Positions 21,376 through 34,816 of a DNA stretch of 64,000 nt are shown here, one piece after another. The DNA is taken from positions 1 to 64,000 of the forward strand of contig JACQZQ010000092.1 in the NCBI GenBank assembly GCA_016213785.1, given 5' to 3'. The stretch is from Acidobacteriota bacterium (GTDB taxonomy: Bacteria > Acidobacteriota > Blastocatellia > Chloracidobacteriales > JADJPF01). The position numbers and the translations under genes are program-made. Under the pieces are notes generated by a model. The model was not told where the DNA came from and searched no databases. It saw only the letters and a list, made by a program, of their open reading frames with translations. Every line of letters begins with the position of its first letter. The stretch's first letter is position 1.

Positions 21376-22014
21376 ATGACCAATCAAAATCTTAGTGAAG
21401 AAATGCTTTCTTTACTTAAACAAATTCTTTCAGAAGTTAAACAACATAGCATTGACCTACAAGAAATCAAAAACCGAATTACAAAACTTGAAGAGCGGAT
21501 GGGTGATCTTGAAGAGCGGATGGATCGTCTTGAAGAGCGGATGGATCGTCTTGAAAAGCGGATGGGTGATCTTGAAGAGCGGATGGGTGGTCTTGAAAAG
21601 CGGGTGGACTCTCTTGAAGAAAGAATAAATCGCCTTGAAGAACGGATAAATAGTCTTGAGCAGCGTTTATCTAATGTAGAGATTCTTGCCCTTGAAAATG
21701 CATCTCGTGTTAGCAATCTAGAAACAACCCTAATAGAAGTACTTACTCATGTTATTAGTTTAGAAAACAAAATTGATGGATTTGAAAAAGAAATCAAAAT
21801 GGTTAAAGAACAAACTCGTAAATTGCAAAAAGAAACCGTTTATTTAGATTTTAAGACTGCAAATATGCAACTTGATAGTGAACTTCTCGGCCATAAATGG
21901 CCAGAGCTTCTGGGTCGGAAAACGCTGTCTCACGACAGTGACGAGCAAGAGAATCAGCAAAAGAAGTATAGAGCAAGAAGTAGAGCGACCTTAGCAGTTC
22001 GCGTTTATTTCTGA
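21376..22014 (+). CDS. Heptad-repeat coiled-coil protein, 3' end replaced by IS sequence
   Basis: The start ATG at 21376 has GGGAGGA nine bases upstream. The protein is nearly all coiled coil: about nine perfect seven-residue units of the LEERMGD type (residues 38-100), then less regular heptads to about 169. From base 21883 the frame runs into the end of an IS605-type element and reads about 43 foreign residues before a stop. Joining 21882 to 23970 restores the original frame, ending VQQLQDSVKTS, so the ancestral protein was about 180 residues. The role is unknown; the shape suggests a scaffold or tether. Confidence 0.75.
   Translation: MTNQNLSEEMLSLLKQILSEVKQHSIDLQEIKNRITKLEERMGDLEERMDRLEERMDRLEKRMGDLEERMGGLEKRVDSLEERINRLEERINSLEQRLSNVEILALENASRVSNLETTLIEVLTHVISLENKIDGFEKEIKMVKEQTRKLQKETVYLDFKTANMQLDSELLGHKWPELLGRKTLSHDSDEQENQQKKYRARSRATLAVRVYF
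21487..21675 (+). repeat. 21-bp tandem repeats encoding heptads
   Basis: Nine consecutive 21-bp units start with CTTGA(A/G)(G/A)A(G/A)CGG or a close variant. The central units are almost identical at the DNA level, indicating recent expansion by slippage or unequal exchange. Each unit is one coiled-coil heptad, so copy number changes would lengthen the rod without breaking the frame. Confidence 0.9.
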
Positions 22015-22140
22015 AAGCACAAGGCTATCAGAGTTTTGGGCAGCCAAAGAAAGTTTAGCTTTCTGAGGTCTTATAATCCCACCACGCGCACTCTTCCGCG
22101 TTCCTGCGGATGAAGACTCAGAACTCGCGCTCTGAGGTTT
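21883..22140 (-). ncRNA. Predicted omega RNA of TnpB
   Basis: In this family the guide RNA spans the 3' part of tnpB and the right end, and the guide is the flank just outside the element. Here that places the scaffold at about 22140-21883 on the minus strand, including the hairpin 21886-21906, and the guide at 21882 downward, beginning TTCACTATCAAGTTGC. The 5' limit is approximate and this is inferred from family knowledge. Confidence 0.45.
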
Positions 22141-23400
22141 GGAAAAATCTAACAAGAATTTAACACCACGTTTAGCAATAACTTTAGCTGCATTTAAGTC
22201 AGCATTCTCAGCATTGTTACAGACAATACAGTTAAACTCAGATTGAGAAAGCCTATTGTCCGGGTGAATGTGGCCGCACTTGGCACATTCCTGAGATGAG
22301 TGATGTGGTGGTACTTTTATAACTAATTTATTTATTTTAATAGCTTTATAAGCCATAAATGTAGCAATAAGTCCCCAACAGCTATTAAGTATTGCCTTAT
22401 TTAGTCCAGCTTTAGCAGAACTTCCATTTGGTAGATAAGTTTTTTCATTAACATCAAGTTTAGCTTTGGGACTAGCTGTCATATTTTTAACTTTTAAGTC
22501 TTCTAATACAAATATTTCACTATCACTATTAACTAGACTGTGAGTAGTTTTATGAGCAAAGTCTTTACGGATGTTTGCCATATGTTGATAGAGGTTTGCT
22601 ATTTTTCTCTTAGTTTGTTCCCTACGTTTTGAGCCTAGCTTTTGACGAGCAAGTTTTTTCTGATAAAACTTAAGTCTAGCTTCACATTTGGCTAAAGCTT
22701 GTTTCTCTAGATCTGTGAAGTCAAAGTGCTGTGAAGTTGATGACATTACTGGTACTATTACGCCTCTGTCTAAACCATTAGCCTTTTCTATTAAACTAAC
22801 CTCATCTAGTTTAGAAAACTCCTCTATTAATTGTTCTTGGCTTTTAAGCACTAGTCCATTTTCGTAGTTAAAGCTTACATAGTAGTTGCCATTTTTCTTT
22901 GAGATACTAATTGAATTTGGCTCTAAGAAGTCTCTATGTGCTACAAAATTTAAGTAACCTATATTGTTGGTTTTTGTACCTATAAATAGTTGATAGTTTT
23001 TTTGTTTTGTTTTTGGGGCAAACACTATTTCTATTTGGAAAAGCTCGCGAGTTAACCAAATACTATCTTTTTTACCTTTCTTTTTCTTTGTTGGTCTTGC
23101 TGCTAAACCTTGGAAATAACGTTGATAAGCTTCATACCATCTAACTGCACTATTGCGTAATATCTGTGATGGACAATCTTTTAACCAAGGTGTTAACTCT
23201 GTCTTAAACTGTGAGTAAGTTTGGTCTATTGGTATTTTTTCACCTGTTAAACTTAAACTATGTCTCAGAAATGTTCTTAAGTATTGGTCTTCGTCGCACT
23301 TTGCATTATAGATAAAACGAGCGCATCCCATCCATTGAGATAATATTAATTTTTGTTCTGAAGTTGGGTTAGCTTTGAACTTGATTCCCTGTTGTGACAT
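21991..23400 (-). CDS. tnpB: TnpB RNA-guided endonuclease
   Basis: The 469-residue protein is a complete TnpB, ancestor type of Cas12. The RuvC residues are present: Asp211 in GLDRG, Glu300 in FVLEDLK and Asp401 in NADLNAA. The zinc finger has CAKC (372-375) and CIVC (391-394). It uses a guide RNA from the element's right end to cut the donor joint and favour retention of the element. The C-terminal tail after 420 is Ser-rich and overlaps the presumed omega RNA. Its start is 57 bases from tnpA on the opposite strand. Confidence 0.94.
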   Translation of the reverse strand: MSQQGIKFKANPTSEQKLILSQWMGCARFIYNAKCDEDQYLRTFLRHSLSLTGEKIPIDQTYSQFKTELTPWLKDCPSQILRNSAVRWYEAYQRYFQGLAARPTKKKKGKKDSIWLTRELFQIEIVFAPKTKQKNYQLFIGTKTNNIGYLNFVAHRDFLEPNSISISKKNGNYYVSFNYENGLVLKSQEQLIEEFSKLDEVSLIEKANGLDRGVIVPVMSSTSQHFDFTDLEKQALAKCEARLKFYQKKLARQKLGSKRREQTKRKIANLYQHMANIRKDFAHKTTHSLVNSDSEIFVLEDLKVKNMTASPKAKLDVNEKTYLPNGSSAKAGLNKAILNSCWGLIATFMAYKAIKINKLVIKVPPHHSSQECAKCGHIHPDNRLSQSEFNCIVCNNAENADLNAAKVIAKRGVKFLLDFSKPQSASSESSSAGTRKSARGGIIRPQKAKLSLAAQNSDSLVLSEINANC

Positions 23401-23457
23401 TCTCTTGCCTTTTATCTATAATTTATTTATTCTCAATATTATACTACAAGAAAGTAA

Positions 23458-23889
23458 ATGCTGTCTATGACAAAGTTATCTTCTAAAGAATGGCGTACTG
23501 GACGCTCTTGTGTTTTCCAAAACCATATTCATCTAGTATTTGTTACTAAGTACCGTCGTGACGTTTTAACTAATGCTATGTTAGTTCGTTTAAGAGAACT
23601 TTTTAGTGAAACTTGCAAACAATTCTCTTCTGAATTACTTGAGTTTAATGGCGAAGATGATCACGTTCACTTGCTTGTTTCCCTTCATCCTAAAATTTCT
23701 TTATCTGTTTTAATTGGTAGACTTAAAGGTAAAACTGCTTATTTCTTACGTAAAGAGTTTTGGCCTGACATTAAAACTAAACTCTGGGGTGAGCATTTTT
23801 GGAGTCCTTCTTATATGGCTCTCTCTTGTGGCGGTGCTCCTTTATCTATTATTAAAGACTATATTGAGCAGCAACGCCGTCCTTCTTAA
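23458..23889 (+). CDS. tnpA: TnpA HUH (Y1) transposase
   Basis: This 143-residue transposase excises and inserts the element as a single-stranded circle. The HUH motif is His69-Val-His71 in DDHVHLLV and the nucleophile is Tyr135 in IKDYIEQQ. The length is normal and all catalytic residues are present. A second ATG nine bases into the gene is an alternative start. It is divergent from tnpB, the IS605 arrangement rather than the collinear one. Confidence 0.94.
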   Translation: MLSMTKLSSKEWRTGRSCVFQNHIHLVFVTKYRRDVLTNAMLVRLRELFSETCKQFSSELLEFNGEDDHVHLLVSLHPKISLSVLIGRLKGKTAYFLRKEFWPDIKTKLWGEHFWSPSYMALSCGGAPLSIIKDYIEQQRRPS

Positions 23890-26481: not shown

Positions 26482-26523
26482 ATTTAATTTTCTAACCTTA
26501 AAAGGAGTCTCTTAGAAGGACTT

Positions 26524-26583
26524 ATGCGACACACCAAAAAAACTCAAATTTGTATGTGTTGTAGCGCGCTAACAGCGCGCTAG
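26524..26583 (+). CDS. Cys-rich leader peptide of the sulfur operon
   Basis: A 19-codon frame reads MRHTKKTQICMCCSALTAR. It has AAGGA five bases before its ATG and four residues CMCC with three Cys codons, directly in front of a stable hairpin. Short Cys-bearing leader peptides are known upstream of sulfate assimilation genes in Actinobacteria. Slow decoding of the Cys codons when cysteinyl-tRNA is scarce would hold the ribosome at 26551-26562, next to the hairpin. Function is inferred from position and composition. Confidence 0.7.
   Translation: MRHTKKTQICMCCSALTAR
26562..26582 (+). promoter_or_regulatory. GC-rich hairpin abutting the Cys codons
   Basis: TAGCGCGCT (26562-26570) and AGCGCGCTA (26574-26582) form a perfect 9-bp stem with a three-base loop. 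It is unusually GC-rich for this genome and spans the last codons of the leader peptide. No T-run follows, so it is not itself an intrinsic terminator. Confidence 0.75.
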
Positions 26584-26774
26584 CAAAGCCTTTAGTGGAG
26601 ACTTATCTTCATACCTAATAACCAATCAAATAGTAATAAATATTAAGTGAATATTATATTAAGTTAAGTTATAGCTACCTAGTATCTAATGTCTAACAAT
26701 TAACATTTAGTATCTAGTGCTAAAACATAGTATATAATTACTATATTTAGTTACTATATTTAGTTAAGGATCTG

Positions 26775-26813
26775 AAAAAACCACTATGGGCTTTGTGCTC
26801 ACGGTGGTTTTTT
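26775..26813 (+). terminator. Terminator (attenuator) before the siroheme synthase gene
   Basis: AAAAAACCAC (26775-26784) pairs with GTGGTTTTTT (26804-26813), with an inner GGGC/GCTC stem. The T-run ends 18 bases before the ATG of the first enzyme gene and no coding gene ends just before it, so its position fits attenuation of the downstream operon. Confidence 0.75.
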
Positions 26814-26831
26814 ATTTATGGAGCATAAGTT

Positions 26832-27761
26832 ATGGATAAAGAAAAAAAAGGAAAAGTTTATTTAATTGGTGCAGGGCCAGGTGATCCAAAACTCTTAACT
26901 CTTAAAGCAGCAGAGGCTATAGCTCAAAGTGATGTAGTAGTTTATGACTACTTAGTTAATCCACAAATCTTAGCAATAGCTCGTTGTGGAGTAAAACTTA
27001 TTTATGTAGGTAAACAAGCTGGACAGCCTTCTATTTTGCAGGAAGAAATCAACCAGATTTTGATAAAACAAGCCAATTCAGGGCAAATAGTAGCAAGGCT
27101 TAAAGGCGGGGATCCTTTTATTTTTGGTAGAGGTGGTGAAGAAGCAGAAGCACTTGTTGATGCTGGAATTAAATGGGAAGTAATCCCTGGTATTTCATCA
27201 GGATCAGCTTCAGCCACTTATGCTGGAATTCCTCTTACGCATCGTCACTATGCATCTAGTGTAGCTTTTATTACCGGCCACAACGGCAAAAAATCACGAA
27301 AAAAAGTCGATTGGGATTCAATCGCTAATACAGTAGACACCCTTGTGGTTTTTATGTGTGCTGAAACCATTTCTAATATCGCTGATCAAATCATTCTAGG
27401 TGGCCGTTCTGCGCAAACTCCTATTGCCATTATTAGATGGGGAACATATGAATACCAAGAAGTCTACTTAGGTACTCTACAAGATATAGCAAACTCTGAA
27501 ATAAAAGTCCAACAGCCAGTAATAGCAATAATTGGGGATGTAGTAACGTTAAAAAACAAACTACATTGGTTTGGAAATTATGACCTACATTACTCACTTA
27601 AATCTCTAGCTGATTATGCAACAGAAACATTACCCGTTTATCAAACCACTAATACCTCTCTTGAAGAAGAATCAAGCATTTTATCAGATTCACTTCAAAA
27701 TGATTTGTATAGTGATTTATATATGGATAAATCCTTTGTTTTCAATAACCACTGGTTATAA
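26832..27761 (+). CDS. cobA: Uroporphyrinogen-III C-methyltransferase
   Basis: The enzyme methylates uroporphyrinogen III twice to give precorrin-2, the precursor of siroheme needed by the sulfite reductase encoded two genes on. Motifs are VYLIGAGPGDPKLLTLKA, the KGGDPFIFGRGGEEAE loop and IPGISSGSASATYAGIPLTHR. Residues after 250 form an extra tail of about 55 residues with no known domain; the CysG dehydrogenase/chelatase part is absent. It is the first structural gene of the operon, with GGAG nine bases upstream. Confidence 0.94.
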   Translation: MDKEKKGKVYLIGAGPGDPKLLTLKAAEAIAQSDVVVYDYLVNPQILAIARCGVKLIYVGKQAGQPSILQEEINQILIKQANSGQIVARLKGGDPFIFGRGGEEAEALVDAGIKWEVIPGISSGSASATYAGIPLTHRHYASSVAFITGHNGKKSRKKVDWDSIANTVDTLVVFMCAETISNIADQIILGGRSAQTPIAIIRWGTYEYQEVYLGTLQDIANSEIKVQQPVIAIIGDVVTLKNKLHWFGNYDLHYSLKSLADYATETLPVYQTTNTSLEEESSILSDSLQNDLYSDLYMDKSFVFNNHWL

Positions 27762-27790: not shown

Positions 27791-28573
27791 ATGTCACAAG
27801 TCTTAATTCAACATTTTGGTAGGAAAAGTCAAGAAACTCCTCAAAAAGTGGAGGCTTATAGTCTTGATTGGATTAGAAATCAAGCTCTTGAACTGCAAGA
27901 GTGCTCTCCACAAACAGTTATTGAATGGGCATCTAAACTGCTAGCTGACAAACTTACTATTGCTACAGGTTTTGGCGTTGAAGGTATGGTTCTTATTGAT
28001 ATGGCAGTAAAGATAAACTCTAAACTAGATATTTTTTTTATTGATACAAGTTTCCTTTTTCCTGAAACTTATGATTTGCGCTACCAAATTGAAGATAAAT
28101 ACCAAATTAAGCTCCGTGCCATTAGCCCAGAATTAACTCCAGAAACCCAACAAAACCTTTATGGAAAAGAATTATGGTTAACAGACCCAGACCTTTGTTG
28201 TTATATAAGAAAAATTGAACCACTAAAAAAAGCACTTAATGGTTATAACGGTTGGATGACAGCTATTAGGAGAAATCAGACAGCAATAAGGTCTAAAGCT
28301 AGTGTTGTGGAATGGGATAATCAGTGGCAGATCTTAAAAATTAACCCTCTGGTAAACTGGAGTAAGGCAAAAGTCTGGAGCTATATAGTAGAAAACAATG
28401 TCCCTTATAACCCGCTTTATGACAAAGGCTATCCAAGTATCGGCTGTACTCATTGCACTCGCCCAGTAAACCTAGGAGAAGATGAAAGGGCAGGCCGTTG
28501 GGCTGGAAAAGAAAAAACTGAATGTGGATTACATGGTGGTAATAAACTTATTAGCTTACGCCATAACCCCTAG
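27791..28573 (+). CDS. cysH: Adenylyl-sulfate (APS) reductase, CysH family
   Basis: The 260-residue enzyme reduces activated sulfate to sulfite. The two Cys pairs CC (in DPDLCCYIRK) and CTHC (in GCTHCTRPV) are the ligands of a 4Fe-4S cluster, which points to APS rather than PAPS as substrate. The C-terminal ECGLHGG carries the catalytic Cys. It lies 29 bases after cobA, with AAAGGAG before its start. No ATP sulfurylase gene is in the window, so APS supply must be encoded elsewhere. Confidence 0.93.
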   Translation: MSQVLIQHFGRKSQETPQKVEAYSLDWIRNQALELQECSPQTVIEWASKLLADKLTIATGFGVEGMVLIDMAVKINSKLDIFFIDTSFLFPETYDLRYQIEDKYQIKLRAISPELTPETQQNLYGKELWLTDPDLCCYIRKIEPLKKALNGYNGWMTAIRRNQTAIRSKASVVEWDNQWQILKINPLVNWSKAKVWSYIVENNVPYNPLYDKGYPSIGCTHCTRPVNLGEDERAGRWAGKEKTECGLHGGNKLISLRHNP

Positions 28574-28623: not shown

Positions 28624-30228
28624 ATGAATATTGAAGAAGTAAAAAAAAGGAAAGACGGGCTTGATGTATTAGCTGATATATATCGCTATGCAACGTTAGG
28701 GGATAAATCAGTAAGCCCAGAAGATGAAGCACTTTTTCGTTGGTATGGTATTTATACACAACGACCAGCAGAAGACGGTTTTTTTATGGTAAGGTTACGA
28801 ATACCTGGAGGAACACTTACTCCAAATCAATTACATACAATAGCTGATCTATCTAATAAATATGCTAGAGGATCTGCCGATATAACAGTTAGACAAAATA
28901 TTCAATTTCATTGGGTAAGAATTGAGAGTTTACCAGAAATTCTCAACACTCTGCAAAGTGTTGGTTTATCGACTACAGAAGCCTGTGGCGACTGTGTACG
29001 TAATATAATTAGCTGTCCTGTATCTGGAGTAGACCAAAATGAACTTTTTGACACTTCAGAAATTATAAATAATGTAAACAAATTTTTTCTTGGCAATAGA
29101 GAATTCTCTAATTTGCCTCGTAAATTTAAGATTGCGATTACGGGTTGTCACCTTCACTGTATTTACCCTGAAATTAATGACATAGGGATTTTTGCTGTAG
29201 GCACAAAAAATAATATTGCTTTTCGTGTGCGTGTAGGTGGTGGGTTATCTACTATGCCAAGATTTTCTAAAGACCTAGGAGTACTACTAGATCCTGATGA
29301 AATAGTTGAGGTCTGTGGTGCAATGGCAGAAGTCTTTCGTGATGAAGGTAATAGAACAAATCGTAAACGAGCTAGGTTAAAGTTTCTTATTGAACAATGG
29401 GAAATCCCACGTTTTCGTCAGGAAGTAGAAAACCGCCTAGGAAGAAAATTTATTTATTCTCCTCAGCCAGAAAACTATGTACCACAAGATCGTAGTCATT
29501 CATTTATAAATAACCAACACAACCCTGATTTAAGCTATGTGCCTATTTCTGTTTTAGGAGGCAGGACTTCTGGTGATGAGCTAAAAAGACTTGCTGAATT
29601 AACTGAGCAATGTGGTAGCAGTCGTATAAGAACAACTAATACACAAAGTATTATTTTGCTTGATATTCCAAACCAAAGGCTTGAATTCCTAAAACAAAAA
29701 CTTGATTCTAAAGGGTTTAACTATGCTCCTAGTTGGTCTAGAAAAAGTATGATTGCGTGTACAGGAACACAATTTTGTAAACTAGCAATTGCTGAAACAA
29801 AAACTCGTGCAGCCATAATTAATGATTATCTAGAACAAAATGTTGAACTTGATACCCCTCTACGTATTAGTGTCACAGGCTGTCCAAACTCCTGTGGACA
29901 GCACCATATTTGTGATGTTGGTTTAGAAGGAGCACTTGTTCATATTGGAGAAACAAAACAAGAGGTATTCCAAGTCTTTCTTGGCGGTGGAGTAGGCAAA
30001 CAGGAAAGCTTTGGTAAAAGAATAGGTGTAAGAATTAAAGCAAACAAAGTAGGCGAGTCCTTAGCTCAACTCTTTAACCATTATAAAGAAAATAGGATCC
30101 AAGATGAAACATTCCAAGAATTTTGTCTACGCCATACTAGCCAGCAATTAAAAGGATTCTTGGGTAATTCCGCAATATCTGCAATATCTGATAACTTTGT
30201 AAATAAAACAAACTTAGCCGCAGACTAG
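28624..30228 (+). CDS. sir: Ferredoxin-type sulfite (or nitrite) reductase
   Basis: The 534-residue siroheme and 4Fe-4S enzyme carries out six-electron reduction. The cluster ligands are in ACTGTQFCKLA and GCPNSCGQHH. Two tandem nitrite/sulfite reductase halves are present, each starting with a ferredoxin-like region (about 55-120 and 305-370). Sequence alone does not separate nitrite from sulfite reductases, but the operon with APS reductase argues for sulfite. It is 50 bases after cysH. Confidence 0.9.
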   Translation: MNIEEVKKRKDGLDVLADIYRYATLGDKSVSPEDEALFRWYGIYTQRPAEDGFFMVRLRIPGGTLTPNQLHTIADLSNKYARGSADITVRQNIQFHWVRIESLPEILNTLQSVGLSTTEACGDCVRNIISCPVSGVDQNELFDTSEIINNVNKFFLGNREFSNLPRKFKIAITGCHLHCIYPEINDIGIFAVGTKNNIAFRVRVGGGLSTMPRFSKDLGVLLDPDEIVEVCGAMAEVFRDEGNRTNRKRARLKFLIEQWEIPRFRQEVENRLGRKFIYSPQPENYVPQDRSHSFINNQHNPDLSYVPISVLGGRTSGDELKRLAELTEQCGSSRIRTTNTQSIILLDIPNQRLEFLKQKLDSKGFNYAPSWSRKSMIACTGTQFCKLAIAETKTRAAIINDYLEQNVELDTPLRISVTGCPNSCGQHHICDVGLEGALVHIGETKQEVFQVFLGGGVGKQESFGKRIGVRIKANKVGESLAQLFNHYKENRIQDETFQEFCLRHTSQQLKGFLGNSAISAISDNFVNKTNLAAD

Positions 30229-30282
30229 ATTAAGAAAACAATCTCTAGTTTTTTATCAATTGGCTTGGAGTGTAAAATCCTT

Positions 30283-31047
30283 ATGACATTAGAAGTAATT
30301 TTAGCAGGATTCATAGTAGGAATAATGATAGGTATTAGTGGAATGGGTGGAGGTAGCTTAATTACTCCTATGATGATTTTTGTTCTTAATGTACCTCCTT
30401 TAACAGCAGTTGGAACAGATTTGCTATTAGGAGCCATTACAAAAACCGTAGGGGCTACTCAACACTACCGCCTAGGAAATGTTGACCTCAAAGTCATTAA
30501 AACCTTGCTTACTGGTAGTATTCCAGGAGCAATATCAGGCTTACTATTTTTAAGAATCTTACCTCATATCAATTTCTATTCTGTTGATAAGCTAATTAAG
30601 CAGTTATTAGGGGTAATCTTATTATTAGTTGCTGTAGGGCTATTGTATCCCTCTATTTGGGAACATATAGAAAAACTAAAAAATTCTAAAAGCGAATCTA
30701 CTCAAAAACGTATTGTCCAAATATTTAGTTATGTAGTTGGTTTTTTTGTTGCAATAACTTCTATTGGTAGTGGAAGTTTGTTTGTCCCTTTTTTATTAAC
30801 TTTTTACCCAACATCTATCACTCAAGTGGTAGGAACTGATGTTTTTCATGGCGCTATTCTTAGTTTAGTTGCTTCTTCGGGGCATATTGTTAATGGTGAT
30901 ATTAATTTTTTACTACTAACAAACTTAATGATAGGTTCGCTGCCAGGAGTAGTTTTAGGAGCTAAACTAAACAACCTTCTTCCAAAAAGGTTAATTCAAT
31001 TGCTACTTGCATTTATGCTCACTGTTTCAGGATTAAAACTACTCTAA
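30283..31047 (+). CDS. TauE/SafE family sulfur-compound permease
   Basis: The 254-residue membrane protein has about seven to eight hydrophobic helices and the two internal repeats of the family, each with a GSLxT/GS-like turn (GMGGGSLITPMM and GSGSLFVPFLL) and later GAxxG segments. TauE/SafE proteins move sulfite, sulfate or organosulfonates. Its place at the end of the sulfur operon suggests sulfate uptake or sulfite export. I start at the ATG at 30283 rather than a TTG at 30265. Confidence 0.85.
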   Translation: MTLEVILAGFIVGIMIGISGMGGGSLITPMMIFVLNVPPLTAVGTDLLLGAITKTVGATQHYRLGNVDLKVIKTLLTGSIPGAISGLLFLRILPHINFYSVDKLIKQLLGVILLLVAVGLLYPSIWEHIEKLKNSKSESTQKRIVQIFSYVVGFFVAITSIGSGSLFVPFLLTFYPTSITQVVGTDVFHGAILSLVASSGHIVNGDINFLLLTNLMIGSLPGVVLGAKLNNLLPKRLIQLLLAFMLTVSGLKLL

Positions 31048-33823: not shown

Positions 33824-34816
33824 ATGGGATGTCCTGAATCAGCAAAAAATCTATATTTATCCGAACAAGCAAACTCTGCTCGTAGCATTTTAGAGAGCTT
33901 AAAAAATCATGGTCTAATTAATTGTTCTCCAGAAGTTTTGCAATCAACAAATGCATTTGAAGAAGGGCTTGGACTGCAAGAAACCTGCTCATGTATTGTG
34001 GCTTCGGCTATGGCAGCAAGCCTTGCCAAAGCCAAGCCGGAAAATAATCAACCTCCTTGCCAAACAGCTAAAAAAATCTCCTCAGAAATAGCAAAAGAAT
34101 TCCAAGAAAAATATAAAACTACTAAATGTGCTGAACTTACCTCTCAATTTTCTGATTTTTCCTCTCAAGAAAGAAAAAATCACTGTGCTGAAATTGTTGA
34201 ATTTGTTACTAGCAAAACAGTTGATTTGCTTACTAAACAGGAAATAGAAAGCGGTAATTTTAGCCTTACTAGATTTACAGAATATCTCTCTCAACTCTCA
34301 GAAGAAGAGTTTAATCTAGATAATACTTTTAAGTTAATGCAATTAGTTAATATTGACTCTGAAGAAATAAAAAAATGTATTAATTTTTCTGAAGATAATT
34401 ATACTCGTAATTTATTTTATAAAGATGATCGCTTTGAAGTTTTAATAATGTGTTGGAACAAAAATCAAAAAAGCCCAATCCATGACCATTATCAATCATT
34501 TAGTGTAGAAAAAATTATATCCGGTAAAATCATTAATACCAATTATCACTATACCAATTCAAATACAGATGAAATTCAAGAAACTAGCTCAGAAACTTTA
34601 TCTATTGGAGGAGTAATTTTTAGCCATCCTGGAGAAATCCATAAAATCGAACCCGCAGACAACCTTCCTGCTATATCCATTCATCTCTATTCACCACCTC
34701 TAAAACAGATGAAATGCTTTAATTTAGAGAACAAAACTGTTCAATGGGCAAAACTTCGTTATCTATATATTTATCAATCAGAGGTGTGGCAGTCACTAGA
34801 GTCTTGTTATTTATGA
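33824..34816 (+). CDS. C_GCAxxG_C_C-like domain fused to cysteine dioxygenase
   Basis: Residues about 150-330 are a cupin of the cysteine dioxygenase type, which oxidises cysteine to cysteine sulfinate with Fe(II) and O2. Iron ligands are His220 and His222 (PIHDHYQSF) and His273 (HPGEIHKIE); Tyr289 in SIHLYSPP is the conserved active-site Tyr, and there is no obvious Cys for the thioether crosslink, as in bacterial enzymes. Residues about 10-140 resemble the C_GCAxxG_C_C redox family, with Cys34, Cys55/57, Cys102 (KCAEL) and Cys121 in its spacing, although the GCAxxG core is replaced by CSCIVASA. The fusion is unusual. The sulfur operon upstream suggests a cysteine-handling role. Confidence 0.75.
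   Translation: MGCPESAKNLYLSEQANSARSILESLKNHGLINCSPEVLQSTNAFEEGLGLQETCSCIVASAMAASLAKAKPENNQPPCQTAKKISSEIAKEFQEKYKTTKCAELTSQFSDFSSQERKNHCAEIVEFVTSKTVDLLTKQEIESGNFSLTRFTEYLSQLSEEEFNLDNTFKLMQLVNIDSEEIKKCINFSEDNYTRNLFYKDDRFEVLIMCWNKNQKSPIHDHYQSFSVEKIISGKIINTNYHYTNSNTDEIQETSSETLSIGGVIFSHPGEIHKIEPADNLPAISIHLYSPPLKQMKCFNLENKTVQWAKLRYLYIYQSEVWQSLESCYL

Follow-up and report, generated by a model that had tools for sequence, protein, structure and literature searches.

The window, a stretch of 64,000 nucleotides from an Acidobacteriota bacterium whose assembly measures 6.4 Mb, carries a cobA-cysH-sir-tauE operon which we take to yield sulfide for cysteine synthesis. It is preceded by a short leader frame, three RNA segments predicted to form local or long-range pairings, an AT-rich spacer and an intrinsic terminator (Table 1). 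An earlier note on this DNA had named the genes a sulfate assimilation operon; the sulfur genes agree with this, with the correction that gene 1 is of the cobA type and serves siroheme synthesis. The 19-codon CMCC frame with its ribosome-binding site, the 9-bp GC-rich hairpin after the Cys codons and the terminator ahead of the first gene, all reported in the same note, are present in the sequence. NirA-family models also match the reductase, but below their cut-offs. Its nearest named relative is that of Chloracidobacterium sp. UBA7656, together with other Blastocatellia, a match that assigns the host to the Acidobacteriota. The enzyme is absent from three relatives in the host's own family, the reductases of order-mates (44–47% identical) are placed elsewhere in the tree, and the host protein clusters with those of families f9 (61–69% identity) and f8 (58%). 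From this placement and the absence within the family it follows that the operon and its leader were either transferred or lost from the neighbours.

Table 1. Leader elements and operon genes, in window coordinates
Feature	Position	Strand	Description and support
Segment A	26506–26523	+	Holds leader SD GAAGGA (26515–26520); predicted duplex with C (anti-antiterminator/SD sequestration)
Leader peptide ORF	26524–26583	+	MRHTKKTQICMCCSALTAR*; ATG 26524, TAG 26581–26583; 19 codons
Hairpin B	26562–26582	+	TAGCGCGCT-AAC-AGCGCGCTA; 9 bp, loop AAC; arms 26562–26570 with 26574–26582; begins at last base of last Cys codon; fold
Segment C	26585–26604	+	Antiterminator strand AAAGCC-UU-UAGUGG-AGACUU; predicted pairing with A or D
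Spacer	26605–26774	+	AT-rich, ~170 nt, between C and D; fold; single occurrence in genome
Segment D	26775–26813	+	Intrinsic terminator; fold dG −20.6 kcal/mol, z −6.5 vs shuffles; 5' arm partners of C: CCACUA 26781–26786, GGCUUU 26789–26794
cobA	26832–27761	+	Operon gene 1, cobA-type uroporphyrinogen-III C-methyltransferase; TIGR01469, 301 bits, above cut-off
cysH	27791–28573	+	(Phospho)adenylylsulfate reductase; TIGR00434, 258 bits, above cut-off
sir	28624–30228	+	NirA/Sir-type ferredoxin-dependent sulfite (or nitrite) reductase; PF01077 + PF03460
tauE	30265–31047	+	Last operon gene, TauE/SafE-family sulfite exporter; PF01925, E 2e-47

The Cys codons of the leader frame lie at 26551, 26557 and 26560 and code C-M-C-C. 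The SD-like GAAGGA leaves 3 nt to the ATG, a tight but plausible distance, and together with the conservation of the frame it suggests that the leader is translated. When this intergenic region is dinucleotide-shuffled, 0.8% of the shuffles contain a Cys-cluster small ORF. The peptide has no match in NCBIfam, and no second copy of the leader was found in the genome by motif and covariance-model searches or upstream of its best cysE-like gene. No convincing sigma-70 promoter was found (2 matches against 3.9 expected by chance).

The leader RNA is strongly structured: positions 26508–26612 fold with z −4.6 and the whole stretch 26500–26820 with z −5.6, and no shuffle equals either value. Structure of this kind would also suit a metabolite riboswitch or a protein-binding RNA that drives the terminator, the frame being incidental, and two other Blastocatellia carry weak SAM-II-like matches upstream of sir. 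Against this, no Rfam family matches the window at the gathering threshold and relaxing the E-value adds chance-level hits only, no match is found in the 28 relative loci scanned, and among the most divergent relatives nothing is as constant as the Cys codons, the surrounding RNA being changed. The riboswitch candidate, rejected for want of an Rfam match in the window or the scanned relatives, is highly unlikely.

A search of 162 genomes of the class with a model of the leader (R1) matched the window and seven f9 genomes (Blastocatellia), each time ahead of the same operon. More divergent Cys-rich leaders are found ahead of sir or cysH in families f4, f5 and f6 and ahead of cobA in f8; f7 possibly carries one too. 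The sir-bearing relatives L043, L044, L047, L048 and L053 have no leader. In f16, a second and distant Acidobacteriota family with many near-complete genomes (probably Terriglobia), a Cys-cluster small ORF occurs at most 400 nt upstream of 16 of the 22 sir genes, where 0.77 would be expected by chance; the control region from −400 to −1500 gives a single match in 22. Many f16 leaders have a −10 hexamer 6–8 nt upstream of their ATG, so their transcripts are probably leaderless. The search for the peptide ahead of cysH or sir in related genomes, which the earlier note had proposed as a check, finds Cys-rich leader frames in several Blastocatellia families and in f16. The element is not a single case: relatives across the phylum carry such leaders, several families of Blastocatellia having them and the large family f16 having them in a putative leaderless form.

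The divergent relatives keep a Cys-rich run at the equivalent place while the remaining peptide differs. CMCC resembles a metal-binding motif, and the frame could be imagined to code a small functional Cys-rich protein, metal- or redox-binding, followed by an ordinary terminator. The peptides are little alike outside the Cys run, however, their length and stop position vary, the number and order of Cys residues vary among relatives, and the C-terminal residues are dictated by the RNA elements B and C. With conservation limited to the Cys run, a functional Cys-rich protein was rejected and is extremely unlikely.

Of the 31 leaders examined, 29 are separated from the gene by an intrinsic terminator, a count that leaves out an apparent match of L155 located within the gene. 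In the window, C (AAAGCC-UU-UAGUGG) is complementary to the terminator 5' arm (CCACUA-UG-GGCUUU), with a C:D duplex of −18.9 kcal/mol against a mean of −10.2 for shuffled segments (p 0.003). The C:D antiterminator beats shuffles at p<0.05 in 12 of 29 loci, the window among them, and no clear antiterminator is seen in many second-family loci (L143–L155). The A:C duplex amounts to −15.8 kcal/mol in the window. Hairpin B itself was considered as antiterminator and rejected, since in the window its arms mismatch the terminator while C matches it. In L136 and others of the second family the post-Cys hairpin has a 3' arm that matches the terminator, and in this part of the family that hairpin is the predicted protector. 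The spacer between C and D, ~170 nt in the window, is 3–4 times longer than in relatives (about 40–65 nt). This length could weaken C:D; the spacer is also predicted to fold on itself into one long hairpin, which would place C beside D. Its origin as a repeated mobile insertion was rejected, the genome holding only one copy.

The two pairings of C are supported by their joint change among species, measured with swap, shuffle and covariation statistics that ignore kinship. When partners are swapped between species, native A:C duplexes average −17.9 kcal/mol against −13.2 (3 of 20000 permutations as good) and native C:D duplexes −21.6 against −17.6 (42 of 20000 as good). The A, C and D sequences of f9 change together, with C:D pairs such as GAGCC/GGCUC, AAAGCC/GGCUUU and GAAGCC/GGCUUC. 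Four of the six pairs of hairpin B changed on both sides in a compensatory manner. In an alignment that is structure-fitted and leans toward structure, A:C and B together show 8 pairs changed on both sides against 4.0 in shuffles and a covariation score of 0.320 against 0.201, which none of 500 shuffles reaches and which lies well above all slid registers.

The best reading of the element is ribosome-mediated attenuation of transcription in response to charged tRNA-Cys, to which we give a probability of about 0.85. Ribosome-mediated control by cysteinyl-tRNA had been put forward in the earlier note and is favoured by the leaders, terminators and exclusive pairings of the relatives, although the GC-rich hairpin described there is not the switch by itself, and the note misses the strand that would be. 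This strand, C, lies just downstream of the Cys codons and would have two alternative partners, A and the 5' arm of D. When Cys-tRNA is ample, the ribosome would reach the stop codon and mask C, leaving D to terminate transcription and the operon off. When it is scarce, the ribosome would stall on the UGU codons some 20 nt upstream of C, prevent hairpin B and leave C free to capture the emerging 5' arm of D, with read-through into cobA-cysH-sir-tauE. In a transcript without translation A:C would pair first and sequester C, favouring termination, and the leader SD would be hidden as well. We infer that the element is transcribed, that ribosomes stall on it and that it responds to cysteine.

Constrained folding, in which a ribosome was assumed to mask plus or minus 15 nt, predicts 13.7 bp of nascent C:D in the window when the third Cys codon is occupied and 0.0 bp when the ribosome has reached the stop codon. 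In the f9 genomes the leader stop is located past C and, on the fold model, the finished state would probably rely on re-formation of A:C, which spans 10–12 bp in several f9 models. A:C beats C:D in only some of the relatives. In the window folded without a ribosome C:D wins at equilibrium, so that A:C would need to act kinetically. Once the complete terminator is in the fold it wins at equilibrium in all states; the switch must therefore be kinetic, as switching likewise is in classical attenuators.

The E. coli trp, his and leu attenuators share with the element a short leader ORF whose codons include those for the product of the pathway, a terminator before gene 1 and alternative protector, antiterminator and terminator pairings. 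Here the short ORF carries Cys codons and recurs in relatives, the terminator lies between it and the first structural gene, and an exclusive antiterminator overlaps the terminator 5' arm, several second-family loci being ambiguous in this last respect. The Acidobacteriota element differs in its proposed sensing of Cys, in using the ribosome-binding region of the leader as protector strand instead of the region of the regulatory codons, and in the extra hairpin B, which follows the Cys codons and precedes the antiterminator strand. A pairing that hides the leader ribosome-binding site was already proposed for E. coli trpL and provides a precedent. SAM-II/SAM_alpha riboswitches and Cys T-boxes also exert RNA control over sulfur, methionine or cysteine genes; unlike the element, their RNA binds the ligand or tRNA directly and has no leader ORF.

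Cys leader peptides of Actinobacteria were reportedly described by Canestrari et al. in 2020. Like the element, they are short frames that contain runs of Cys codons and lie ahead of sulfur-assimilation or cbs operons, and some of them are leaderless, as those of the second Acidobacteriota family probably are. The difference lies in the terminator and antiterminator of the Acidobacteriota element, and in the 5' UTR with SD of its window version. In Mycobacterium, Propionibacterium and Bifidobacterium, Cys leader peptides come with no conserved terminator hairpin, and no intrinsic terminator is reported for those of Mycobacterium (PMC1262725). Leaderless poly-Cys frames of mycobacteria affect operon expression, and their effect is described as one on translation (PMC9031893). 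The Acidobacteriota leaders could act in the same way, progress through the Cys codons controlling translation of gene 1 and the terminator only ending stray transcripts, a reading to which the absence of terminators in Actinobacteria and the seemingly leaderless frames of the second family lend some weight. It is nonetheless very unlikely, given the terminator that separates leader and gene in nearly all loci, its 5' arm complementary to C, and the start of cobA in the window ~250 nt downstream of the leader stop. The Cys run in a short ORF ahead of a sulfur operon is thus of the actinobacterial type, whereas the strong conserved terminator departs from that type, in which there is none and control is by translation or Rho.

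Comparison among genomes strongly suggests a conserved cysteine attenuator and its mechanism as a classical transcription attenuator, where the published Cys leader peptides were found without terminators. Almost none of the attenuators predicted in Acidobacteria has an assigned function (PMC2965389), and one of them would now gain a proposed function tied to sulfur assimilation. No description of the Acidobacteriota element was found in the literature covered, to which subscription papers mostly do not belong, and it seems previously undescribed in the phylum.

The 31 leaders use 106 UGU and 42 UGC codons for Cys, whereas the cobA, cysH and sir genes that they precede use 88 UGU and 348 UGC (Fisher p 3e-29, odds ratio 10, the loci being non-independent). 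The AT-rich window gives no information on this bias. In L135–L155 and L034–L052 the leaders strongly favour UGU while the genes of these GC-rich genomes favour UGC. A single tRNA-Cys(GCA) normally decodes both codons, UGU by wobble, and slower decoding of UGU may sharpen the response. Codon choice in leaders becomes testable here, since a single amino acid has only two codons and the odds in leaders are shifted tenfold to UGU. A wider scheme is tentative, at slightly less than even odds: Cys attenuators with terminators would exist phylum-wide in a 5'-UTR form, whose leader ribosome-binding site holds the antiterminator so that the operon is gated by initiation as well as elongation, and also in a leaderless form, both tuned through UGU.

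Other features were noted in the window and in related loci. An IS200/IS605-type element at 21991–23889 of the window codes a Y1 transposase, TnpA, and, in divergent orientation, a protein resembling TnpB (OrfB_IS605, with a Cas12f1-like TNB domain). Near the sulfur operon, at 33824–34816, a protein of 330 aa combines a C_GCAxxG_C_C redox-active domain with a cysteine dioxygenase domain of type I. L043 (5855–5926) and L046 (4451–4520, minus strand) have SAM-II/SAM_alpha-like matches upstream of sir that score 22–23 bits (gathering 36), with a conserved stem and a GCUAA core; they may represent a divergent class of SAM-II in Acidobacteriota. At the L046 locus there is, in addition, an upstream small ORF rich in Cys, MLTVPNMSACCCPRKFP.
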